From NCBI GenBank assembly GCA_030407085.1, contig CM059583.1:43617001-43681000 (forward strand): 64,000 bases of DNA. Reading direction: 5' to 3'. This DNA comes from Trichopria drosophilae. Lineage: Eukaryota; Arthropoda; Insecta; Hymenoptera; Diapriidae. Shown piece by piece: positions 17,121 through 62,700 of this stretch. Position 1 is the first letter of the stretch. Each line of letters begins with the position of its first letter. The position numbers and the translations under genes are program-made. A model generated the notes under the pieces. It was not told the origin of the DNA and did not search any database. It saw only the letters and a list, made by a program, of their open reading frames with translations.

Positions 17121-17655
17121 TTGGAAAGATTTTGAAAAATGGCCAAACAGATCTGATACTGCCTTATTTTACTCAAAGAACATCATTTCTGCCCAATGTT
17201 TTGACCGTATAATTTCGGTCCTCTTCAGAAGCAACTTTTATATTGTTTTATATTGTGCATATTATTACTTAAATTATTATAAAAAACAATCTCATATCAT
17301 AGTTATACTTAGGTTTGTTTCAACATTTGTATATTCCATATTTACTCGGCATTTATCACATGTTTATTTATATTTGGATTTCTAATAATTTGAATTGTGT
17401 AGATAAATATATATATTTCATGTATAACGTCCTCAGTTCAAATATAACCCCTCGAAGAATAGTTCAGTTTTTTTAATCTGGCGAATTCTATTTTTTTTTA
17501 ATTCGTATTTGTTGCATATTATTTTTAATATTGATTTTTAGTCACTGAAGAGGGCCGAAATTATACCTTAAAATATTGGGCAGAAATTATGTTCTTTGAA
17601 CAAAAAAAAAGACCATGTTCAGAACGGTTTGGTAATTTTTTAACATCTTTCCAAC
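17121..17655. repeat. Inverted-repeat element with CTGAAGAGGnCCGAAA arm ends
   Basis: The left arm (about 17121-17234) is the reverse complement of the right arm (about 17541-17655), with landmarks TTGGAAAGAT, CAAAGAACAT and TTTCTGCCCAAT. In each arm the inner end reads CTGAAGAGG(A/G)CCGAAATTATAC, on the minus strand for the left arm and on the plus strand for the right arm. The ~300-bp centre is AT-rich and non-coding. Confidence 0.6.
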
Positions 17656-17816: not shown

Positions 17817-17985
17817 TCGAAAAACCGACAAATTAAAAAGCCAACATGTCAAATAACCAACAGTCATAAAGCCGGCAATCGAAAAGCCGACACTTTGTCG
17901 GTTGTTTATTGTCGGCTTTTCGATTGCCGGTTTTTTGAGTGTCGTTTTTTTGACCTGTTGGATTTTTAATTGTATGGTTTTCACC
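17817..17985. repeat. Imperfect palindrome built of ~16-bp GCCGAC units
   Basis: The core arms 17872-17891 and 17911-17930 are perfect 20-bp reverse complements with a 19-base loop. Flanking sequence extends the palindrome imperfectly to about 170 bp. Each arm is itself a series of short units of the form AAAA(G/A)CC(G/A)(A/G)C, spaced about 15-16 bp. Confidence 0.75.
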
Positions 17986-44210: not shown

Positions 44211-46259
44211 GTAAGTCAGTAAAACATATGACCTAGATAAACTAACTTATTTGGAACTTTAAGGGGCAATTAACTTTTATAGAATAACAATTGCAACATC
44301 AGTTTTATAGAATTTTCGGTTGAAGGCTACGGCGTTTCCGCTGGTAAATAATCTACAACGTGTTGCAGATTAACGAATTCAAGTTTCGAGCACGAAAATG
44401 TGCATTTTTATTACATTGAATTCAATAATAATAAATATTAATACTTATATTAGATTGTAAACAATTTTACTGTACTAAACGTGTCGAAGTAAATGACAAT
44501 TATAATCTCATTTATCTCATTAAACTTTTTTTAAATAATATCAATAAACAGTAATAAGTGATTTTCTTCATTTGTTATATATTTTTATATCGAAGATAAA
44601 TTTGTTAACTTGGGTAACAGCCGATGACGACGTGCCATGTAATAAGTAAAATTATTTTTTAATTCGAGTGTACAAAATTTATGAAATATGAATTGTTATA
44701 GTATTGATCGAGATGCTTACTTCTTAAAATCATTTCTTTTATTAAGAAAAATTAGTACTGACAAAAAATTTAAATATACAATTTATAAGGTATACAGAAA
44801 TTGTCACTTTTAACTTTATTATTAACGAACTATATGTGACTATACTTTAGAAAACAGAATAACCAACAATCAAACTGCACTATCATTTTCAAAGTGCAAA
44901 CGTGCAATATACCTACTTACATGTCTAAAGTACCAATTTATATTTCACGGTTTGGCAGCTGTCTGTGGTGTTTTAGCACACAATCTTATTCCGTTTAAAT
45001 ATACGTTTAATTAAATATTTTGATAAATAAAATACCTTTATGAATCTGCATAGATTTATTTTTATTGTTTGCTAATAATTTGCTAAAATTTATACTAATA
45101 CCATTAAATATTAAATAATTAAGAATGAAATAATGATTTACTTAATAACTGCAAATTGTATTGATATGTAGTTTTTGATAATAAGTTGAATATTTGATAT
45201 AATTTCAAAGAAACTGCCCAAAATGCCAAAACAAAAATTGTGTTAGATTTTAATAATACTTCGAATAGGTAGTTTTTTTGGGTCACTGATTTCGAATATG
45301 GAGTCAGATTTTGGAAATTCAAAATGGCCGATCCAATATAGCGGACGAATTTTTAAACATCGAAAAGAATCATTTCAATCTTGTTACTATGGGAATTTCG
45401 GGGCCGCTGATTATAAATCTGCTAATGATGAAAATTTCAAAATGGATATAGTTGAAACACAAATTAAAAATAACGAGTAACAAGTTTTAAGCAGAATGGT
45501 TCGACTTTTCAAAAAGTGTCCGCCATATTGGATCAGCCATTTTGAATTTCCAAAATCTGACTTCTGATTCATAATCAACGACCCCAAAAACCTATGAGTA
45601 ACAAGTTTCAAGCTGTTTTAGAAACTTTTTATGCAGAACTTGAGTGAACACAATGTCATACTTCATTACGAAAATTTTGAAAAAATCGTGAAAACTATAC
45701 CGTCGTATATTTTTGTCTTGGACAGCGTCATCGTATTCAGTACACCTTCGACTGTCTAAAAATGAATTTGATTTTAATTTACATAAATTCCAGAATTTGT
45801 TAGTCTAATTTATACCATGACGAAGATTTGCGTTTTTCCGGCAGTCTGGGAAAAGTACAAATGACGAAGATCTTCGTCGTCGGTATTCAAGGAGTTAAAG
45901 ACAATAAACGACTAAACTCATTATAGATATACTGAAATAAGATCGTATACAAAAATGTTTATACCTAAAAGTAATATGATGCAGTTATATGAATTTGCGT
46001 ATAAATAGTTCATTCAAAATAAATCTCTTCACATAAACCATAATAGACTTGTCATGGAATTGATCATGATATCATCAATCAAATAACATTTTTATCTCTA
46101 AAACTTTATCTCTATTCTGGAAATTCATCAAAACCAAATGAAGTGAAATTTGATCTCTGATCAGCTATTCAATAATATTTATTCAGGTTAATGTAAAATA
46201 TATCATTGAGATTAATATTTTCATCTATGTAATAATTATATTTTTATGTTATTTACTAG
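44211..46259 (+). other. Probable 5' UTR intron of painless copy 1
   Basis: AT-rich sequence between the candidate donor at 44211 and the acceptor at 46258-46259. It has no coding potential that I can see. It contains one copy of the 'GGCGGATCC' foldback repeat (45273-45612). Confidence 0.35.
45273..45612. repeat. GGCGGATCC foldback repeat, copy 3
   Basis: The left arm GGGTCACTGATTTCGAATATG ... AAAATGGCCGATCC and right arm CCATATTGGATCAGCCATTT ... AATCAACGACCCC are good inverses. A third partial unit lies in the middle (GGGGCCGCTGATTA). Within the probable 5' intron of painless copy 1. Confidence 0.7.
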
Positions 46260-46267
46260 GAATCAAA

Positions 46268-49073
46268 ATGACACCAGAAGACGAAGTGCTGCAACTGCAG
46301 TTGTTGCACGATCCAAGCGTTGCACTCTACAAACGACTCTTAAAAACCTTCGAGTCTCGTGATCTTATTTCATTTGAAAGGCTTGTGGATAGAGAATTAC
46401 AGAAACATCCTCCAACTTTTGATATAAATTATATTTATGAACATCCGACAAGCAAAACTTTCTTGGATATTGCTTGTAGCAATGGCTGGCCAGAATTTAT
46501 CGAGTTCCTCGTGCAAAATGGCGCCGATCCAAATAGACTCAACAAAATTCACAATCGAGCACCAATACACTTTGCAGTTGAAGAAAATCACGTGGCAGTT
46601 CTTGAAAAGTTGCTTCAAGATCCTCATATCGATCCAAACATTGAAGCAGGATCGAATACTGGGGTAACTCCGCTTCACATCGCTGTCAAGCATCAGTATT
46701 TCGACTGTGTCAAGTTATTGCTGAATGCTGGTGCTAGTCCGAATATTCCAAATAGCAGAGGAATGACGCCGTTGCATTTGGCAGCAACATTAAAAAATGG
46801 CCTTATGGTTCAATTTATCATGGATAAGAGTGACTTCGTTGATGTTGATAGTTATAGAGATGCTAGAAACAATACTGCCAGGGAAATACTTAAGAAAAAC
46901 TTTCCTGACCTCGTCTTACCTGCAGTTACAGAACAAAAAATTGATGCGAATCAATTTCGAAGTTACTTGTATGCCAATCATGAAACAAAATTTCTAGAGA
47001 ACCTTGAAAAGGTAAGTTTTTTAAGTTTGATTTTCGATAGTAAGTAATCTACAAATAATGGTTATAATTTCAGTATTTACCATGTATCTTTTCTGTGATT
47101 GTAGGTAGAGTATGCGTCTCTTCCAAACAAAAGGGAACTATTAAAAATAGCGGCAAAAAATAATTTAATCGCAGCTTTTACGGAACTTATGAGAAGAGGA
47201 TGCGATCTGGATGGTACGACTCTCCAGGAAATTGCGGAAGAGGCAGTCAGAAGAGGTCACTCGGAAATCTTGAAAGTATTGCTGGATGTTGATAGGACTC
47301 TGGCAAATAAATTACTGCTTCCTGCTGCTAGAGAATTAGGAATGCCATACCGATCTGGACCAAAGCGTGTCGATAACCGAGTAGCCTGTTTGAAACTTAT
47401 TTTGGATCAAGATCACGTGAATGTTCGGTGCGAAGATGGTGAGTTATATTCAATAAATCGATATTAATTAGATTCTTCATGCATAACCCAAACATTGTTT
47501 TTCAGACAAAGGGAATACTCCATTACATTATGCTGCCAGAGCCAAGTCACGGGAAGCCTTGGACCTTCTGCTAGAAAAAGGAAGTTACATAGGTCACATG
47601 AACCATTTTGGTATACCACCATTAGCTCACATTTCGCCAGAAATTTTGTCCGACTATTTCGATAGTTGCATTGAAAGCAAAAAAGAGCGCCAAGATGATT
47701 TTGAGATAATCTTTAAGTACCACTGTCTTGTTCCGCACGCGATAAAAAGTAACAGCGAAGATACTTTGATCGAATCGCAAGCAAAAATAAACTCTGGCAA
47801 TATACACGGCGAAACTGATGTTCTCAGCTATGTGGCTCAACATCGATCTTTAAAATTCGTTTTGAAACACCCACTCATATCGTCATTTCTCTATCTAAAA
47901 TGGCAAAGGATGAGATACGCTTTTTACGTGAACTTTCTCTTTTATTTATTATTTTATCTCATTTTTAACGCGTATATATTGATCACGACATATGGTTTGT
48001 CGAATAACTTACCTGTGAACGGTACATCAAATTCCACTGAAATTCAGGATGTAGGATTTCGATACATAGATTTACTATTCACTTTAACCTGTATCGCTCT
48101 TATATTGCTATCTATTCGAGAAATAATCCAATTTATCTCATCACCTTGTAACTACTTATCAGGTTTAGACAACTGGCTAGAGATAATATTGATCATTTTT
48201 GGATTCTGTGTGTTGTGTAATGTTGGTCCTCAAATAGGAGCACTGGCGATACTTTTGTCTGCTTGGAAACTTGTGGTCCAAATTGGACAACATCCTAAGA
48301 TGTCAACAGGAATCGAAATGTTCAAGACGGTTACAAGAAACTTCGTAAAATTTTTGTTTCTGTATATTTTTCTTATAATAGCATTTGCTTTGTCGTTCTT
48401 CATGCTATTCCGAGACGCTGATGATCAAAACTTCCCTGACCCTGGACATTCCCTGTTCAAAACAATCGTAATGCTAACTGGCGAATTCGAAGCTGGCGAC
48501 ATTCCCTTCGTGAAACATCCTGGTTTCAGTCATTTAGTATTTGTTGGATTTATATTTCTCATTGCTATTGTTCTGCTGAATCTGCTGACTGGATTGGCAG
48601 TCAGTAATATCGCTGAAATTCTGGCTGAGGCGGAATTGGTTGGTCTGATCTCCAGAACTCGATTAGCTGCTTACGCCGAGAACCTTGCCATTGGTACGTC
48701 CACTTTTCAAAAAACTCACGATTGTTGTTTCTGCTCATATTTGCCGATTAATAAATTACGACTAAGCCCCTTCCGATTTGTGGCAAAGAAAGTTCTATTA
48801 TTCCCACAGTTCTTACCACACGAAACTTTAAGCGTTAAGCCGTTTAAACACAATGAACTAGTCATCGGCGGAAAGAACCAAAAGGGGCGAAAATGTATGA
48901 AGTTGAAAATGGATCCTAACGTAGTAGAATCGGCAAAAGCTATTATTGTGCTTCGTAATCAAACCTCGAACGAAGATAAAGTTCAAAAAGAATTTGAGGC
49001 TGTGAAACTTAGACTATCTCGTGTTGAGGAGTTGTTAGAAGCATTTTGTAATAAACAATCAAATGTAAATTAG
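46268..49073 (+). CDS. pain: Painless-type TRPA cation channel, copy 1 (complete, 3 exons)
   Basis: Complete channel gene of 881 codons. Exons are 46268-47011 (ends in phase 0, donor GTAAGT), 47105-47438 (ends in phase 1, donor GTGAGT) and 47506-49073 (TAG stop). The introns are only 93 and 67 bp. Ankyrin repeats are visible at residues ~62-175 (TPLHIAV, TPLHLAA, 'ASPNIPNS') and ~362-400 (GNTPLHYAA). S1 is at ~498-521, S2 at ~546-566, S3 at ~582-600, S4 at ~603-617, S5 at ~641-661 and S6 at ~702-726. The pore signature MLTGEFEAGD is at 682-691. Two N-glycosylation sequons (N531, N535) lie in the S1-S2 loop, and the last ~30 residues look like a coiled coil. Length and signatures match Drosophila Painless (about 913 aa), including the phrase 'LISSFL(Y/F)LKW' before S1 and the post-ankyrin 'DSYR...FP.L.LP' segment. 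The expected role is a plasma-membrane cation channel in nociceptive neurons. The start ATG sits 9 bp after a plausible acceptor (46258-46259), so a non-coding first exon is likely. Family assignment is secure; the exact orthologue is not. Confidence 0.95.
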
Positions 49074-50240: not shown

Positions 50241-52053
50241 ATATTATCATATAAGTTGTAATAAATTATTCAATTATCTCCCCAACATTGTTATTAAAAC
50301 ACTTTAGAAGCTACTTAATGCGTAAACTTACCTAGATTTTATTATCTATAATATTTTTTTTATTTTTTAAAATATAATTAATGAATTGTGAATAGATGTT
50401 TTATGGACGAGTTTGGGAAACTTAGTAACGATAAAGCAACTTTTGTTAGAGTGAGAGATAAGTTCTCTTAAACTATCAGAAACTGATCCGTTCAATAGAT
50501 GTGATGAAAATTAAAAACTTTACTCATTATTTTTTACACGAGTTTTTATTACGAGGAAACAGTTACTTTTATACGTTCTCCTAAAACTAATCTTTAAAAG
50601 AATATTAAACTACGAAAGAGGCCTTTTGCAGTAAAAAAAGTGTCACATATATGTAATAGTATCATGTAGGCGGAAAAATATATTTTATTTAATTCATATC
50701 ATTGTCATATGTTCCTGAGTATAGATTCGTAGTACCGAGTAATTAAAAATTATCATGACTATATTCAAGTAATAAGTCTCAGTCCTAGTTTGTGGCCTCT
50801 TTGCAAATGTATTTATTCCATGTATTTTTTTAAATGATTCCAAAAATTATGACCGAAACATGAAAACGTGTACCACTCATAACCGTTGTTTGAAATGATG
50901 CAAAAAAATGTCTGATTCTGGTTCATGAAATATCCTTACTTCAACATTTGAAAATATTAATAGGCAGAGTTCTTTCCTGCAAAAAGTATTACAATTTGAG
51001 GTTATGAGGATATTGAAAATGTACAATTTTTAACCAAATTTTTTTGGCTATAGTTGTATTTATTGATAATGTAAATTGTGAGTGCAGATTTGCATTTCAA
51101 GACTTCATATATTTCGTCAATGTCCATTGTGTAATATTCAATGTGTTTTTCCCATTTACTCGGACTTAAAAAATTCGCTTTTCAAATAAGTTTATTGTTA
51201 ACTAATCCGTAACAGAAAATTTGCAAAATACTGCATTCTTCTCTTAATTAGTACAATTGTATATTAAGTAATAAGTAATTGAAACATTACATATTTTAAC
51301 GTTAACATTAATTAAATTAATTTTTTTAAGTAGTTTGGCGTATACTAGATTGAAACGTAAATCTGATTTGAAAATATACAGATTACTTGCCTTTTTTAGC
51401 ATAATACTCGATTGTATGCGCCGTGAATAAACACATGAAACGTTATGTAATCAGCATTTGCGGAAATCACGTAAACGCTTATTCTATATCGGTTCATGGT
51501 CACCGTGAATTATTTTCAACATTTATATGGGCAAATCCTCGATACTTTTAACTTGCAATAGTGTTTGCAAAAGTGTGCACGTTTCATTTTTAAACTCATT
51601 TTATTGACAATCTATTTTTCCATTAATAATAAAAATTAGTCATTTTTCAAATGAAATGATAAACAAGTTTTCTAAAAAAAAAACACTTGTCTTTCAATCT
51701 AATTGAATATAGAACATTGAAACTAGATTTGTTAATTCAGTTTTCGAAATTTTCACTTTTAATATGAATTTTTGTATTGAAGGAATTTTTACATAATCTT
51801 TGAATTGTAAATAATCAGGAGCCCCGAGTAAGAAATCAATTGAAGTGAAATGGAGTTGGTTGGAAGGCTATTTTTTAAACGGGAGGCATTTGCAATTTTA
51901 TAGTTCAAATTATTATGAAAACCTTTTCTGACTTCATGTCATTTTTTAAGGGATTTTAGTGTACAAAAAATCGTTCACATTTAAACGAAATGAAAATAAT
52001 TATATAAATAATCTGACGTTAAACAAAAATTTATTTTTTAGAATATGTAAAAC
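50241..52053. other. Intergenic spacer, nothing recognised
   Basis: AT-rich sequence between the probable 3' UTR of painless copy 1 and the hammerhead-bearing repeat. I see no convincing ORF, RNA gene or repeat structure. Confidence 0.5.
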
Positions 52054-52838
52054 TATTCCTTATTAGATATTTGCTTGGGATTACGGTTCAAATACACGAA
52101 AATAAATAATAACATATAATGTTTAGATCGAGCTTCGATATAAGCTACTTAATAATTAAAATGAAATAATTGAGAGACCTAAAAATGTGAAATTTACCGT
52201 CTCTGAAACGATGATCTATGGAAATGGTATATGACCAATTTAAAAACGCAATTTGTTAATGGTTTCAAATTCCCTCTAACGGTAAAGAATGAATCAAAAT
52301 GCCTATTTGTTAAAAAATACGTTTCGTCCCAGTGCTATGCAACAAAAATTACAATTAATTAGTCACTGGGTTTCCTAGAGAGATGTGCATTGTGTAGTGA
52401 CATTACATTACCAAAATAATGCATTTCTCTCAATATCACTATATTCTAAAAAATCCTTCATTTTTAGATTATAGTTAAAACTTCATTTAAAATACTATCA
52501 TTACGTATAAGACAGGGCCCTCCGTAGTTTTACTGACGAGTCCAGCGGAGGACCTGGGACGAAACGTATTTTTTAACAAATAGGCATTTTGATTCATTTT
52601 AACAAATAGGCATTTTGAATCCATTGAAACCATTAACAAATTGCTTTTTTAAATTGGTCATATACCATTTCCATAGATCATCGTTTCAGAGACGTAATTT
52701 TCACATTTTTAGGTCTCTCAATTATTTCATTTTAATTATTAAGTAGCTTATATCGAAGTTCGATCTAAACATTATATGTTATTATTTATTTTCGTGTATT
52801 TGAACCATAATCTCAAGCAAATATCTAATAAGAATTAT
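52054..52838. repeat. Inverted-repeat element carrying the hammerhead ribozyme
   Basis: The left arm (about 52054-52332) is the near-perfect reverse complement of the right arm (about 52554-52838). Both contain, in opposite orientation, the GGGACGAAAC 3' part of the hammerhead. The central ~220 bp holds the ribozyme's 5' half and is single copy. The right arm contains an extra short direct duplication (AACAAATAGGCATTTTGA, near 52575 and 52600). A ~28-bp segment just inside the left arm (from 52334) recurs outside the right arm (from 52875). No reverse transcriptase or other ORF is present. The layout resembles the paired or inverted terminal repeats of hammerhead-bearing Penelope-like elements or retrozymes, but that assignment is inference. 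Confidence 0.75.
52502..52568 (+). ncRNA. Type III hammerhead self-cleaving ribozyme with predicted kissing loops
   Basis: All conserved hammerhead elements are present in order. Stem III 5' strand is TACGT (52502-52506), then the cleavage-site base A (52507, a GUA triplet). Stem I pairs TAAGAC (52508-52513) with GTTTTA (52527-52532), with one G-U pair. The core CTGACGA is at 52533-52539. Stem II pairs GTCC (52540-52543) with GGAC (52557-52560), and AG/CT (52544-52545 with 52554-52555) can extend it past a one-base bulge. The core GAA is at 52561-52563, and the stem III 3' strand ACGTA is at 52564-52568. The C15.2-G16.2 and A15.1-U16.1 pairs are in place. Loop I contains CCTCCG (52519-52524) and loop II contains CGGAGG (52546-52551), which are exact complements, like the loop I-loop II contact of natural fast-cleaving hammerheads. 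The predicted cut is between 52507 and 52508. Hammerheads of this kind are known from retroelements and satellites. Activity has not been tested. Confidence 0.87.
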
Positions 52839-52902
52839 TTAAATCAAAGCGGTTAAGAAGATGTTTATACTGTTGCTATGCAACAAAAATTACAATTAAT
52901 TA

Positions 52903-54789
52903 TGTAAAACTATTATTTATAGGTACACCCTAAAATTGAGTATTTTTTCATTATTTCAATTGTACTGAAGATGAAAAATAAATTTAAATCACTATAAGAT
53001 GGCAAGTTATTTTTTATGTTATAAAAGAAGCATATAAAATGTTTAGAAACGAAAATAATTATAAGATATTCACATCTTAATATTCAAAAATATAAAAACA
53101 TACTGATAAATGCTGTATAATGATGAAATTCAAAATCAGATGTATTAAGCGAATACAATAACAAGTTCGCTAGAACGTTTGTAAAATTGTTTTTAAAATA
53201 GTAATAACTTCTTATGACTTTTTGTAAGTTTTCTCAGGTGTCATTAATTCGAAGGAAAAAAAAACTTTCTTTGAAAATGGAAAACAAATCAAATGTGGAC
53301 GATTTCACGAACAGGCCATTTTGTTTTTCATGCAGACCATTAATTAATAATGAATAAGAGTGTTTTAATCAGTTTTTAAACCAGATTACGAGTATCTTTG
53401 ACACTTAACCCTTTTTTGTTCAAAATGAGAAAAGCCGGTTCGTCAACTTCAGCGCAGTTTCTCCAGTAAAAAGATTTTTTTTTTTAAATTTTTAAATAAT
53501 CTCTTTCCTGCTATTTTCAAGTATGCTTTATCGATTAACGATCAGAAAATTGCAAAAAAACAATTTATACCAAAGCTGTTCAAAATGATATAAATATACC
53601 AAGATTTTTAGGTCTATTTTGAATATTTTTTACAATTTTCTCTACTGAAACGGGTTGCTATTGTTGAATATAAATAATAAAACACCTAATTTTTTAGAAG
53701 CAATGGCCGATTCAAAATTGACTCGCAACGATACAAATGTATTCAAAATTATTAATTCTTTGAAATGGAGATCGTAGAAAGTTTTTTAAGTATGAAAATG
53801 ATCATATAAATATCAACTGGTTATGTACAAAGATGGCCACTGGTACAAATCATCAATATAAAACTTTCTATTTCCTCAATTTTAAGGATATTTATATTAA
53901 TTATGTTCAACAATTATGTTCACAACTTTTTACGTATGCATCTCATTGATTGTAACCAGCATCAGTAGAGAAAATCGTGAAAAAAATACCAAAAGATCAG
54001 GCTTTTTTTTTAATTATTTTATACAAAACGTTTGTATATTAATCACTTTTTTGTCAGGAATCGATAGAGCGCGATTAAAAATAATAAGAAATAAAAATAT
54101 AAATGCATTTTAATCCACAAATAATATTTGTAAATAGTGCAGTGTTTTTTATAAGTTTAAGCTTACAAAATAATTGTCGAATATCAAATAATTTCAATAT
54201 ATAAATAAAATTTTTATACAAGAACTTAAATTAAATGGATAAATTTTGATGGTATGTAATGATGGTTTTTTAGTTAAATTTAATGTTATGTGAATAAATT
54301 AATTCTGTCCCTATCACGACTCTGTGGGGAAGTCAATATTAAACTAATAAAAAAAGGGGTTTCGTTATTGATATTCACAGATGTTTTACTTTTTTAAACA
54401 TTTTTTGTCGGGCGCAGTTTTTATGCCAATTGGGAAAAACTCGTTCGTCCATTCCATACTGTATACATTTTGTTTATGAACAAATTTTGTTTATGGATAG
54501 AAAAAGTAGTCTTCATTTCAGAAAATTAAATTTGAATTTTTGAATTTCAAAAATAATGAAACACATATATATATTAATATATGTTAATTTTCATTTACTG
54601 AAATTCAGATGTGTATTCCTTGAGTATTTCATAATAAAATACTAAAAAAGATCCAAAACACATTATACTCAAATTACTGTATACAAAAAAATGTTTTGAA
54701 CTGAACGGGAAGTATGACCCACATGCATGTATTTTCTTGAAGCACAGTCTGAACTTGAATATACTTTAACGTGAAAACGTTCATGCAAT
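52903..54789. other. Intergenic spacer, nothing recognised
   Basis: AT-rich with long A/T homopolymers. The short ORFs have random composition and no domain resemblance. Confidence 0.5.
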
Positions 54790-55549: not shown

Positions 55550-56791
55550 GTAGTTGCTGTCTTTTAAAACCGGTAAAATATTATTTTTATTTTACGATGT
55601 TTGTGAATGAATCTGTATATCCCAACCAAGGATGCATTTTAGAAAAAACTTGATTTAATAGAATTGAAATATTTTTTACAATTATTATATTATAAAATAA
55701 TATTTTATCCGTCTTATGTAAATTCAATTTTTAATTTGAAGTGTGTTTACAGTTAAGAAATTTCATACGTTATTGAGAAATACTATATAATTCAATAAAT
55801 GTAATTTAAATTAACAAAATCCATGGCTATTATGGAGTAAGATGATTTATTCTTAATTTTACGTAGCTGATTAATTCAACAGAATATAAGATAATTTCTA
55901 AAAATATCCCCGCACATTTTGACTGTTTCTGTTACAATTTCTTGAGAGAAAAGAATATTTAAATCCGAAAAATAAAAGATTGCTTTACAAAAAAAGTAAA
56001 TTTTCCTGATACCATTCTTACTATATTTTTGTGAAACTGTCATTTTTGAATTGTGGTGCTAGATTAAACAAAGCTACTTAATACTAAACTTAAGTATTAG
56101 AAACTATGAAATTATTTTGTCTGTGGTATCTATTGTTATTTCCGAAACTTATGTATTTTCGAAACTTACTGAAAAATATAGTTACACGCATATTAAATTA
56201 AAATAAAACAAATGTCAGATATTACATTTGTTTACAGCATTCATTAGAGTATATTTCGAGCAATAACATCTTGATACATATTTCAAAATATTATACACTT
56301 TTTGAACACCATTACATATCAAATTTTCCCTTTTTTTAAATTAATTTTTAAATTTACACTGAACAAAAATATATTGAAAGACAATACTTTCTCATGACTT
56401 ACATGAATCTAGCATAACATGCAGATGATCAAATTTCACATTCAAATAAATTGGCAATTTAATTTTTAATGCTTTGTAGGGAAAAATATTCCAAATTCAA
56501 AATTTGTTGACAAACGAAATACTTTTTTGAAACAACTTCACAATAATTCTATAATATAGAGATCAATAAGTTACCTATATAATTAGAATATATGATTGCA
56601 AATTATGCGGGCCGGTAAAAAATATAATTTTGTAACAAAAGTTTTGCATGAAGGTACACAGCTCCTGTCAAGCATAGAATTCTGAGTCCGCCGAATACGA
56701 GCGTATGCAAATGTTTACAGCATAATTATATTTTCCGAAACATGAAACATTTTACTAATTAGCAAATACTCAAATAACAGTTGGACCAAAA

Positions 56792-59700
56792 ATGACCACA
56801 ACCAGCGAAGGTGTCCGTTTACAAATGTTAGCCGATAGAAACATGGTCATCTACAAGCCTCTACTGAAGGCGTTGTTATCCGACGACAAAGCCACTTTTG
56901 AGAAACTTCTTAAGAAGGAAATTCGGAATCGTCCAAAGACTTTTAACATAGACTATGTGTTTACACATCCGTATCACCGAACGTTTCTGGATATAGCCAT
57001 TTGCAATGGATTGACTCAGTTTATTAATCTTCTACTGGAGCACGGTGCCAATCCTAACAGAGTAAATGAAAACCATAATCGCGCGCCAATTCATTTCGCT
57101 GTGGACTGCAAAAAAGTGGAATCCTTAAAAGTGCTCCTTCAAAATCCATCGGTGAATCCAAACATTGAAATGCAAGTTGGCTCCGGAATAACAGCATTAC
57201 ACTTAGCGGTGAAAAATGGTGATCTTGAAAGCGCTCGTCTTCTTCTGCAACATAATGCAAGTCCCAATATTCCCAATTCTAAAGGTGTTTCCGCCATGCA
57301 TTTGGCTGCCTCGACAAAAAATCGAAAAATGGTTCAACTGATTTTTGAAATGTGTCCTGTCGTCGATATCGACACATTTTTAGGGCCAAGGAGGATACCA
57401 GCGAGGGAGTACTTAAACAACTATTTTCCAGACATACCACTCCCGCCAAGAAGAGAGTTGATAGTAGATCATAATTTACTGCATTATTATTTGCAAGTTA
57501 ATGACGAGAAGAATTTTCTAGATGCACTGAAGGTAATTACCATAAGTTCTTTTTCACCTATTTGAAATGCCGATGTCTTCAGAATCAAAACAGATTCTGA
57601 CACATTATTCGTAAACTAAATAGATTTTAAGTTAACCAAAAACATTTGACTACATTCTGGCCAGGAAGAACAAAGAAAACTAGTATTCAAGACATAAAAA
57701 AAAAGTTCTGAATATAAAGACGTGCAAACAATGTCTATGAGCAAACAAATTTGACTATACTTTGGTACAATAAATTCAACACAATGAGTTATATTACAGA
57801 ACTAAATATTTTTTTATACTCTATTAGAGTTCCGTTCAATTTCTTGTAATATTTCGAAAACTTAAGACTACAATACATTTTTACAATATCTTAGTTTTAC
57901 ATTAGTATTCACTTTTGATTCATACGCTTATATAAATACCTAAGCCAGAAAACGTTATTTATCTGTCTTATTGTTATATTTTATATTAATTATATTTACT
58001 TAATATAATACTGATTAAAAGCAAAAATTGTCTGACTTTCTTGGCTCTTAGATTGAAAAAAAACAATCTCAATTGTATTATTTAAATTATGATAGTGATT
58101 CTGTTCTGAAAATGATTTAGTTGTAATTTTTAAAAGAATACAAAACAAATTAAAATGTAATTTCTTTTAACGAAGTCAAATAACTCCTCATTGAGAAATA
58201 TTCAAAGCTCGTATCAGTTTTACCTTTTTGTATGTTATCGTATAATAATATACGTCTTGTTTCTCGAAAAATTAATAAATATTTCAGCAATAAGTACACT
58301 TTCAACAATGCTCATTTCTACAGGTTGTAGATTATAATTCTTTAAAAAACAGAAAAGGATTACTGAAGACAGCAGCGAAGAATAATTTGAAACAAGCGTT
58401 CGAAGAAATTTTGAAGAAAGAAAGTATTACTGACACGGAAACGCTGATTGAAGTCGCCGAAGAAGTGGTAACGATGGGGAATCCTGAGATTATTCGGCAA
58501 ATTTTAGACTATGACGGATCTATTGCAAATAAACTGGTTATAAAAGCTTGCGCGGAGTTGGACCTGCCCAGTAAAACAAACTCAAAGAATGAAAACAACC
58601 GTTTGAGCTGCTTGAAAGTGATCTTAGAAAACGATAACGTTAATGTTCGTTGCGAAGATGGTGAGTCAAGTTCAATATATCAAGTAATTTCCTTTGTAAA
58701 TAATTGCATTATCGTCCATTCTATGTACATTTACATATAATACGTATACATATACCTGGACGCCTATTTTCCGATAAACGGGAAGCGTATTTTTATGGAT
58801 TTATAATGGACGTTTAGTGAACGAACATATGTGGTGGTTCATAGGATATCCATTTTTCGACATTAAATTGGTCCGTTTCTGGACATATAATGGACGTCCA
58901 ATGTATGGACCCAATTAGCACATGTACATCCTATTGATTGTCCATTATACGTCCACTGAACCGCCGCGTACATACATAGCACGTCCAAATTACTTCCAAA
59001 TATTGTACCTTAAATGGATATTTATTTTTTTATTGTAATTAAGTCTATTTTCGCTCAGTTTGGTCCACAAAAAAGTTGTGCAAAACAAATTATATTTGTC
59101 TCGATGACTCGTAAATTAGAAAATTTGTGTTTGTACTTCAACGCTTCATAATACAAGAAAAGTCACGTATAATTGTATTTTTTCATACTTAACACAGTTT
59201 TTTATGGGGAACTTTTCTGGACTTCAAGGTATTAATATTTAAAAAGTAAAAATATTTTGAGACTCGTGACCAACACTTATCGCTGAAACTTTGTGGTCAG
59301 GTTGCGTACATATAGTCGAAGCTATCGAAGTGGTTTAAGCGACTTTAACTGGATATAGAACGTGCCAGACTTACTTAACATCAGGTTAATCAGATGAAAA
59401 TTTTAGTGGAATGTAATGTAGAATGCAGTACTCCTTAATTGCAAAAAAAATTTAAAAAAAATATCGTCATGCATATATCAAATGTGATTCCGTTTGTATA
59501 AAAGAATGCATTATTAGCACTCCAGTAAGTTGGATATTTATATATATTTATTTGAATGGTTCTGCAAGTCATTTTTAAATCTGTTAAGTTTTTGCACTAA
59601 AATTACCTTCCAATTACTATGGCTTCTCTGATTCGTTGCTGCAATCCTTTCAAGAAAAAGGGTCTTGCGTCAATACTTCAGAATAAAGAATTTCGTCATA

Positions 59701-62700
59701 TTACTCACGAGTTATGTAATAGGCTTAATCTAAAATCTGATATATGGTTAGGCAAAGTAATTTGTAATTCGTGTCGATTAACGACATCATCTAAACTTTT
59801 AAGCGTTCCGATCGATGATACTTCGTCGTCAAGGCCCGAAATATCTCAGGGTTCTGGAAATTCTACTCAGTCTCATGAGACTGAGAATGAAATAGGGGAA
59901 ATAGAAATGGAGGAAGAAATAGACAGTATGGATAAAACAATTAGTGATGAAGCTGCTCTAACAAATTTAAATAAAATCCTCGAACTCTTACATGTTTCTC
60001 CCATTTCAAGGCGGAAAGATCGCAGGTCAAAAGCTGCCGAAAAGAGTAAAATAATTGAAATAAAACAGAGTCTTGATCGCGAATTAAGAAAAGTTTTTAC
60101 AAAAGTACGTCCTGTTGATGATGATATACAAGTCATAGTTGATGAATTAAAAAAAAAATAGCATTAGCGGATCGTAATTCTGAGAAAATAACATTTTCAA
60201 CCATGGTACCAAAATCATGGAAAGTTCGACGTATTCAGAAGGAATTTAACGTCCCGTAATGTTTAAAAACTGAATGGTATATAAATAACCAATATCTAAT
60301 GAGTAATCGGAGGAGTAGTGATAGCACTCCGCACTGCACCTGAAGCGCGGCTTAGCGCACCGGCGAAAGCCGGAGTTGCGCTATTTAAAAAATTATATCT
60401 CGAAAACGAAAAGAGTCTCCATCAATTTTTTTTTTGAATGTAAGCTGAAAGGTTTTTCTACAAAATGAGATGTCGAATTTGAAAAAAAAAATATGCGTTT
60501 TGTGCAAAAATTTAAGTTGAACATTTTTTTGGACCATTTTTTGGTCAAATTAAGAAGAGAAAAAAAATTGTCTTATTTTTAGATAAATGCGCGTATTCCC
60601 ATTTAAATGCGATAATTAGACAAATCGATATCGTAATTTAAAGAAATTCAGTGAATATGACCTCACGTCCGCCATTTTGAAAATTTTGGAAAAATATTTT
60701 ACCACGTTATTTTCCACGCCTATGCCTATCAAATATTCGATTTTCGTTGAATTCCGCAACATCGACCACAACTTTGATATTTTTGACATGGAATGTCTCA
60801 CAATGAAAGTTGTACGATATATTTGGACCTCAGGCAGTTAAATCTTTTCGACCCGAAGTCCGGAATTTGGACATAACTTAAAACGCTGTAACTTTTGTTC
60901 CAAACTTCGTTACAAAGAATTAAAATAATTCACAATCGTTAGATTAGAACCACCTCTTTCAAATCCCTTGATCAGAATCTGCCGGCGATCTCAAGGAACA
61001 AAGTTATGATCATTTTTTTTTTTTTTTTTAATGCTGATTTTTACAACGTTTCTTCTCAAGAATCGCGTTTTTTTTGACATTGCAAAGCGTAATGGTGACG
61101 ATTGCAAAGATATTAATCGCGTCTTTTTATTTCGCCCTTTCTTCTTCCATCCGAATTTGTGCAAAAAACAAAATAGTGGCTTCAAATTGTAATTTTGTCT
61201 CATCATGATTCTTTCATAACCTCAAATTAGTGTTATATTATTATAATGAGGTGTTGCCGATTTTTCGTCTAATTTTCACTCAATTTTCGATACTTTCAAT
61301 AGCTAAACAATTTATTATGTGAACGTTGTCTGCTTTCCCTATTGAGGTTATGAATGATTCATGATGGAATTAGGTATTCACAAATGAAAATATAATTACT
61401 TTTCGATATGATACTGAATCTAGCAGCCGATTCGAAAGCCGCGTATTCAACAAAACAAAAGAATAGCAACTTTTTCGTATAATACAGAGGTAGACTCCCA
61501 AAAATGATGCAACTATATTTATCTACAAATTCCCAGAGTAAAAAAAAACAAATAACGTTTAAACATTGCTGTATTCCATTAATGAACGAGCCGAGTAATT
61601 TCACGGATATCTCACGATTGAAAAGATGTTCGGGATTAAAATTTGGTTGAGATTATCTTAAGGCTATTAGGAAACAATCCCGTGCTGCAAAAATAATTAA
61701 AAATTCTGACTATTGTTTATTACAGTATAATCGTCGGTGTACGGGAGAGGGGGCATGGTACTGATAGATTTCTTCATATTTCGCGATTAAAAAGATGTTT
61801 GGGGCTGAAATTTGGTTTAGATTATCTTAATGCTATTAGCAAACAATCCCGCGCTACAAAAATGATGAAAAAAATGCTGACTATTGTTTATTACTGTATA
61901 AATGGTGAGTGTGCCTGAGAGGCGGGATGGTATCGATATATTTCTTCATATCTCGAGTTAGAACAAATGTTCGGGGCTGAAATTTGGTTGAGATTATCTT
62001 AAGGGTATTAGGAAACGATCCCGCTCTGCAAAAATACTGAAAAAAATGCTTACTATTTTTGGGTGTTCTACCTCTGTATTATACGAAATAATTGCTATTC
62101 TTTTGTTTTGTTACGTACGCGGCGTTCCGAATCGGCTGCTGCGAATCGGCTGCTAGATTCAGCGTCATCTTTTTAATCACAATTTTCCACGATTACAACC
62201 GTTACATGGTCAAATAATCGACATTTGGGCGAGAAAATGCAAAATTACAACTTGCAGATGCTATCTCGCAGGCGCCATTTTCTTAAAAAAAAAAATCTGA
62301 CGGGAGAAGAAAGGGTTAGTAAAAAAAAAAGGGCGATTAGTAGCTTTTTCAATGGTCACCATTGCCTTTTTCAAAGTCAAAACACACGATTCGTGCGAAG
62401 AAACATCGAAAAATTAGTGTTTATTTTTGTTTAAATGATCATAACTCTTTTCTTTGAGATCGCCCGCTGATTCAAATCACGAGATTTGAAAGGGGCGTTT
62501 CAAATCTATCGATTTTGACTTATTTAACTTTTATTTAATGACGTTTGGAACAAAAGTTATAGCGCTGAAAGTTGTGTCCAAATTCCGGACTTTCGGATCG
62601 ACAAAAGTCCAAGTTAATTCTAAAATTATCTACAGCACGGTATCTATCTAAAATGTATATATTCTATATAAAATATTTATGTTAAAACTGAAAGGCCAAG

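Follow-up and report, generated by a model that had tools for sequence, protein, structure and literature searches.

A type III hammerhead ribozyme in a retrozyme-like repeat of the wasp Trichopria drosophilae, probably mobilised by Penelope-type machinery

Our results suggest that the window, the whole 64,000-nucleotide stretch of Trichopria drosophilae DNA that was analysed, contains a retrozyme-like, non-autonomous retroelement that was probably mobilised by a Penelope element and that carries a type III hammerhead ribozyme in its 541-nt unit. Taking its sequence together with the covariation seen across families, the motif was confirmed as an intact type III hammerhead. The motif is conserved and covaries, the insertions have a tandem, inverted and two-site anatomy, and target duplications are present at about half of the loci.

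The motif (Table 1) has the features that define a hammerhead: the CUGANGA...GAA core, a UH cleavage site and three helices. All the invariant positions claimed by the sequence-only reading are in place (CTGACGA, GAA, the GUA triplet and the pairs A15.1-U16.1 and C15.2-G16.2). That reading had described stems of 5, 6 and 4(+2) bp. The helices are there, with small corrections: stem III has 5 bp (TACGT/ACGTA, pairs verified on the window sequence), stem I has 6 bp including one G-U (TAAGAC/GTTTTA, sister copies having mostly GTCTTA), and stem II has 4 bp (GTCC/GGAC) plus AG/CT past a bulged G. Since stem III is open and stems I and II are closed by loops, the hammerhead is of type III. Loops I and II had been called perfect complements; CCTCCG and CGGAGG are exactly that, and the pairing extends even further (CAGG..CCTCCG with CGGAGG..CCTG).

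Table 1. Coordinates of the hammerhead and of the element that carries it (positions of the window)
Feature	Position	Strand	Remarks
Type III hammerhead ribozyme	52502-52568	+	Predicted cut 52507/52508; motif read from sequence, sister copies
Stem III, 5' strand TACGT	52502-52506	+	Pairs with 52564-52568; compensatory changes across families
A17, end of the cleavage triplet GUA	52507		
Stem I, 5' strand TAAGAC	52508-52513	+	Pairs with 52527-52532; compensatory changes across families
Loop I, AGGGCCCTCCGTA	52514-52526	+	CCTCCG at 52519-52524 pairs with 52546-52551
Catalytic core CTGACGA	52533-52539	+	CTGANGA kept in 46/51 copies
Stem-loop II, GTCC AG CGGAGGAC CT G GGAC	52540-52560	+	Loop II at 52546-52553
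Core GAA	52561-52563	+	GAAA at that place in 50/51 copies
Non-coding unit with hammerhead, 541 nt, 29% G+C	52333-52873	+	Period borne out by sister copies in tandem
First 29 nt of the unit	52333-52361	+	Identical to 52874-52902
Start of the next unit, 29-nt head-to-tail overlap	52874-52902	+	Runs up to 3' end site 2
Inverted arm, second, 5'-truncated unit copy	52059-52332	-	Inverted repeat with 52554-52840
Target-site duplication TATGTAAAACTATT, 14 bp, left copy	52044-52057	.	Exact direct repeat found by script
Target-site duplication TATGTAAAACTATT, right copy	52901-52914	.	Exact direct repeat
3' end site 1	52830-52847	+	Unit positions 498-515
3' end site 2	52890-52907	+	Positions 17-34 of the following unit

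A chance resemblance to a hammerhead, held to be very unlikely when the motif was first read, can be practically dismissed. CTGANGA occurs 23 times in the window, and one of these occurrences then has GTCC..GGACGAAAC. The strict pattern CTGANGAGTCCN{4,30}GGACGAAAC matched once in the window and in none of 100 shuffles, with no match on the window's minus strand. Across the genome (a 936-Mb assembly), the strict core pattern gave 1,462 exact matches (730 + 732) against none for the reversed pattern, and the covariation described below also argues against chance. Note that the loose pattern CTGANGAN{10,40}GAAA, with 12 matches in the window against 3.9 expected, is by itself no evidence. The family pattern had no match in viral contigs, and blastn against phages found none. 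What speaks for chance is the Rfam score. The Rfam/Infernal check proposed in the sequence-only reading did not return a match above the cut-off, an outcome that this reading had counted as a possible refutation: at the gathering cut-off nothing was matched over the window, and the permissive search gave a sub-threshold Hammerhead_1 match of 24.4 bits against a cut-off of 34, covering 52527-52577 only (E = 0.0022 for the 901 bp searched, 0.16 for 64 kb and 4,227 families). The gathering score, below which the window motif lies, is a curated cut-off and no defining property of hammerheads. The RF00163 search across the genome matched nowhere, and neither did its controls.

Loss of the core and of the loop complementarity in sister copies had been set beforehand as a ground for rejecting the motif, and both turned out to be conserved. 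The DNA query 52140-52800 gave at least 139 matches in the genome, a floor because 39 of 335 candidates were scored. The window and 38 other loci in which the match spans the hammerhead make up 39 loci, a sample with selection for the ribozyme built in, from which 51 ribozyme copies were aligned (window included). The core is intact in 46 of the 51, GAAA is present in 50, the UH site in 47 and all six loop pairs in 42; every feature is kept in 29 copies, and 42 satisfy a looser catalytic standard. Moreover, the 67-nt ribozyme diverges by 0.019 on average, compared with a median of 0.060 for 67-nt windows around the unit; its divergence is thus about a third of that of its own unit and ranks 20th lowest of 541 windows. 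Within the window's family no pair changed on both sides, that is, no compensatory change was seen.

These copies bear on whether the ribozyme is a relic, once useful and now carried by inert satellite-like repeats that are conserved only through their youth. In agreement with this, one stem I base of the window copy is unlike that of the other copies, its unit has a duplication absent from the majority of copies, the element lies between ion-channel genes and away from any recognised Penelope ORF, and 9 of the 51 copies fail the looser catalytic standard. We consider the relic quite unlikely, in view of the threefold lower divergence of the ribozyme relative to the remainder of the unit and of another family with many copies at 99-100% identity, which points to recent spread.

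As regards the surroundings, the hammerhead element sits between two painless-type TRPA paralogues, part of a tandem group of this channel gene (46154-49073, 56759-58740 and probably from ~62943, plus strand). The ORF at 47487-49073, the one for which homology was searched, has painless channels as its best matches, with hymenopteran names among the 120 of 206 matches listed. Elsewhere in the window there are a long hairpin at 17836-17966, with a weak MIR1319-like match below cut-off, and a tandem repeat at 61607-62057 (172-bp unit, 2.6 copies).

Covariation was analysed across other hammerhead families. From the first 100 listed strict-pattern matches, 40 loci were fetched, picked for differing loop II sequences. 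A script read a type III structure in 33 of the 41 sequences (the 40 loci and the window), and a type I reading was found in none of 20 loci and the window. Among the eight that fail the script's criteria, L068, L077 and L087 were near misses by eye; among the 33, six are doubtful or damaged, with an uninterrupted stem III of 1 bp (L082, L085, L099 and L104) or 2 bp (L069 and L078). When 40 sequences were aligned on stems I-III, with the loop pairing left out of the fit, 84 cells had double compensatory changes against 27.9 in shuffles, none of 500 shuffles being as high, and 90.3% of cells were paired against 79.3 in shuffles. The compensatory changes fall in stem I, stem III and the extension of stem II. 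Note that GTCC/GGAC of stem II was fixed by the search pattern and that the test speaks to stems I and III. In the AG/CT extension, the second pair is not general across families, 25 of its 35 cells being unpaired.

The loops also match each other family by family. The pairing energy of loop I with its own loop II averages -16.0 kcal/mol, compared with -6.1 over 884 cross-family pairs, and with 14 family representatives none of 20,000 permutations matched the own pairing (mean longest Watson-Crick run 7.2, against 3.8 permuted). Like the sister copies, this cross-family pairing supports the intact type III interpretation. The Watson-Crick run is shortest, at 3, in L078 and L100, reaches 12 at most and has a length of 6 in the window; an unbroken loop I-loop II helix of 9-12 bp, G-U counted, is present in 14 of the 33 structures, and uninterrupted Watson-Crick runs of that length in 6 of the 14 representatives. 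A separate observation is a box like CGCTAGAGGGA, about 50 nt past the ribozyme and common to otherwise differing families (L067, L070, L077, L084 and others); 15 of the 40 loci have it with at least 9 of 11 letters, some of the loci having been covered in part.

The sequence-only reading had taken the loop pairing as the tertiary contact behind fast cleavage, which is one candidate role. The complementarity could instead mainly serve an inactive hairpin, made of stem III and a long loop helix with the core in the apical loop. The ribozyme would then be off in the mature circle and cleave only during transcription or in multimers. We give this model somewhat less than an even chance; it concerns the mechanism and is compatible with the retroelement reading. 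It draws on the folding predictions: the bare motif is predicted to fold at lowest energy (-22.3 kcal/mol) into a rival hairpin in which stems I and II are lost, the window's hammerhead secondary structure being at -7.3 to -8.3, and for most of the 33 sequences the minimum-energy fold is the loop helix, usually with stem III, stems I and II being open (dot-brackets read by eye; L078, L082, L085, L092, L100 and L105 fold otherwise). In addition, the 9-12 bp runs in six representatives exceed the need of a short kissing contact, and loop pairing in one plant satellite hammerhead is reportedly called an attenuator in the title of Miller and Silver 1991. On the other hand, the folding program does not compute pseudoknot energies. 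Because covariation extends to stems I and III, selection acts on the active fold as well. Moreover, stem I-stem II pseudoknots were predicted in about 40% of hammerheads according to PMC3088659 and raised activity in the cases that this source reports as tested.

The unit itself is non-coding: when circularised, its longest ATG ORFs are of 26 aa (+) and 48 aa (-). The inverted arm begins at the 3' strand of the hammerhead's stem II and abuts the start of the 541-nt unit, and the last 2 nt of the 29-nt overlap belong also to the right target duplication. The two arms of the window differ at 52569-52625 because a 26-bp near-duplication there is missing from the inverted arm, as it is from most sister copies. 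The 5' ends of inverted arms cluster near unit position 293, possibly an effect of the window unit's own duplication; this clustering was left out of the argument. Two successive insertions, with the 29-bp repeat as a second target duplication, were considered and rejected, the sister copies showing ordinary head-to-tail continuation. At these sister loci the units follow one another head to tail with circular permutation, and the insertions measure 411 to 2,733 bp, with up to ~5 units. At L019 the first four pieces alternate, alternate pieces being identical and neighbours differing at 5-7 sites, and the last two pieces differ from their counterparts by 2-3; this fits a dimeric template or a later duplication of a dimer.

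A second family, with a 536-nt unit, has the same head-to-tail anatomy (at least 187 matches, 150 listed; 39 of 663 candidates scored). Many of its copies are 99-100% identical to the query, and one locus has arms of 1,789 and 4,389 nt (~8 units) at 98-99% identity. A further hammerhead family is seen at L107 (1201-4607 of C1:65935500-65941500), with a tandem unit of ~1,449 bp whose copies are 99.6-99.8% identical and adjoin long open frames.

At 19 of the 39 loci the insertion is flanked by a direct repeat with a score of 10 or more, compared with 1 of 195 displaced controls; at the other 20 loci (score below 10) no target duplication was recognised. The 3' ends of the insertions cluster at two sites, 55-62 nt apart, the stretch between them being a tail-like extension. 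In the first family, the two arms of two-armed loci use opposite sites in 18 of 20 cases, the same site in none and neither in two (L023, L033), and 19 one-armed loci are split 11 and 8 between the two sites. In the second family, opposite sites are used in 16 of 20 two-armed loci and the same site in 1, with no call in 3; its 19 one-armed loci end at site 1 in 1 case, at site 2 in 15, and elsewhere or uncalled in 3. Pooling both families, opposite sites are used in 34 of 40 two-armed loci (same 1, other or uncalled 5). Note that the data of each family served to define its own end-site windows and that ends were taken from BLAST tables, to about +-10 nt. Measured from the core, the sites lie at ~+307/+369 in the first family and ~+301/+357 in the second.

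The copies could be products of LINE-type target-primed reverse transcription with twin priming, and not of Penelope, as the duplications of mostly 13-15 bp and the inverted 5' arm would allow. This explanation seems unlikely to us, because the arms of 34 of 40 two-armed loci end at opposite members of a fixed pair of 3' sites, which is, to our knowledge, no feature of twin priming, and the window copy is without a poly-A 3' end. The anatomy expected of a Penelope-type insertion, direct and inverted copies with a tail at one arm, was found in 18 of the 20 two-armed loci of the first family and in 16 of the 20 of the second.

With respect to the template, the inserted segments cross the ribozyme cut junction 50 times (the loci having been chosen for holding the ribozyme), one of 60 segments starts within 12 nt of the cut and none ends there. 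This makes a circle, or a multimer left uncut, the probable template, and not a cleaved linear monomer.

Possible mobilisers are present in the genome, where GIY-YIG gave at least 142 matches (150 of 1,521 candidates scored). One locus, L114 (C3:74901500-74911300, minus strand), has three tandem Penelope-type copies with a period of ~3,102 bp, 99.4-99.7% identical, two of them with open frames of 807 and 831 codons. Upstream of the frame there is a CTGAAGA..GGTCGAAAC stretch that looks minimal and, by its letters, is possibly the published minimal Penelope hammerhead. In 20 Penelope-type loci, among them those that overlap L114, neither Rfam nor a custom model found a hammerhead, blastn of the unit against them at E 0.01 gave no match, and 47 other hammerhead loci likewise had no match to them. 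The resemblance of the tail to one Penelope tail was not significant (55 of 1,000 shuffles as good), and blastn of L114 against the whole window gave no match. Since no significant sequence is common to the unit and the Penelope loci, it is the insertion anatomy that links the element to Penelope. Note that the window has two CTGAAGAGGACCGAAATTATACGGTC-like stretches in opposite orientation, at 17186-17228 (-) and 17545-17586 (+), that resemble CTGAAGAGGACC..GGTCGAAAC of the L114 Penelope copies, with GAAAC damaged, and are perhaps a decayed Penelope repeat pair.

We propose that the element works like a retrozyme and inserts like Penelope; self-cleavage, circles and the identity of the enzyme are what we infer. 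Head-to-tail transcripts would cut themselves at the predicted site, and the cut RNAs would religate to unit circles or stay multimers. A Penelope-like RT/GIY-YIG endonuclease, supplied in trans, would cut the two target strands mostly 13-15 nt apart, and reverse transcription would begin at two RNA sites ~60 nt apart, one per target strand. The cDNA would run round the circle or along the multimer, giving circularly permuted, partly tandem and often inverted insertions such as that at 52058-52900.

Compared with known systems, the wasp element has something of each. Like the metazoan non-LTR retrozymes described by Cervera and de la Pena 2020 (PMC7229834), it is a short, A+T-rich, non-coding unit with a full hammerhead and no LTR, occurring as dimers to multimers with target duplications of more than 4 bp; in that description, however, the retrozymes have type I hammerheads and repeats of 150-450 bp, whereas the wasp element has type III and units of ~535-541 nt, and is set apart also by its inverted arm and two-site 3' ends. 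It shares type III and a several-hundred-nt unit with the plant LTR retrozymes, whose RNA intermediate is circular in the accounts of PMC7229834 and PMC7761336. These have LTRs and a 4-bp target duplication, in contrast to the wasp element, which has no LTR, a 14-bp duplication at the window and low G+C. With Penelope-like elements, as presented in PMC11167929 and PMC3846280, it has in common tandem and inverted copies, a one-arm tail, target duplication and a hammerhead in the repeat. PMC3846280 reports an optional 'tail' of 31 bp, present at one of the two inverted pLTRs, and PMC11167929 describes for lizard Penelope a tail bounded by two RT start sites; tails of 30-40 bp are given there, against an inter-site spacing of 55-62 nt in the wasp. 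Unlike the wasp unit, whose longest ORF has 48 aa, an autonomous Penelope has an RT + GIY-YIG ORF, and the Penelope hammerheads portrayed in PMC7761336 are minimal type I forms without helix III or loop contacts, whereas the wasp ribozyme is a full type III. The element does not fit the description of metazoan retrozymes (hammerhead type, repeat size), of plant ones (LTRs, target duplication) or of an autonomous Penelope (ORF).

Type III hammerheads are mostly a plant and subviral form, according to PMC7229834 and PMC7761336. The sequence-only reading had called this form unusual in an insect; unusual it is, but not unique, since PMC7936874 describes it in termite and dipteran genomes and in HDV-like RNAs. 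The hammerheads of that source, from termite and toad HDV-like RNAs and from termite and dipteran genomes, are likewise type III, with a first stem I of ~5-6 bp and Watson-Crick pairing of loop I with loop II; they differ in an extra helix I hairpin and a 4-nt GCCR/YGGC contact, the wasp hammerhead having no extra hairpin and 6-12 bp of loop pairing in intact copies. The structure search reported there found no such hammerheads in some hymenopterans, and a literature search on type III hammerheads in Hymenoptera, with thin coverage of subscription journals, found none beyond that negative result. The likeness to the termite forms raises another possible origin, in which the element derives from an infectious circular RNA, HDV-like or viroid-like, of the sort that carries type III hammerheads in termites, and is a decayed DNA copy of it. 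We regard it as highly improbable. The 1,462 pattern matches fall in several families, one of which has copies 99-100% identical to the query; the insertions have target duplications and two-site ends; and no ORF exceeds 48 aa and the strict pattern is missing from the window's minus strand, whereas an HDV-like agent needs a delta-antigen ORF and a ribozyme on both strands, neither of which the wasp element has.

Beyond the preferred reading of a Penelope-mobilised, retrozyme-like element, we tentatively suggest, at well under an even chance, an undescribed class of animal retrozymes, with several families and more than 1,000 type III hammerheads in one hymenopteran. In these, a loop helix of up to 12 bp would be the switch between cleaving or ligating and storing, and circles would be copied round by a Penelope RT from two fixed sites, one per cut strand. 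The covarying loop helix, longer than the published pseudoknots with which we compared it, makes contact versus switch directly testable. An insect genome full of type III hammerheads is relevant to the source from which HDV-like and viroid-like agents acquired theirs. Finally, the two-site rule suggests a way for Penelope elements to use both ends of a single target break, and the many natural insertions, some of them nearly identical, can be used to study it.
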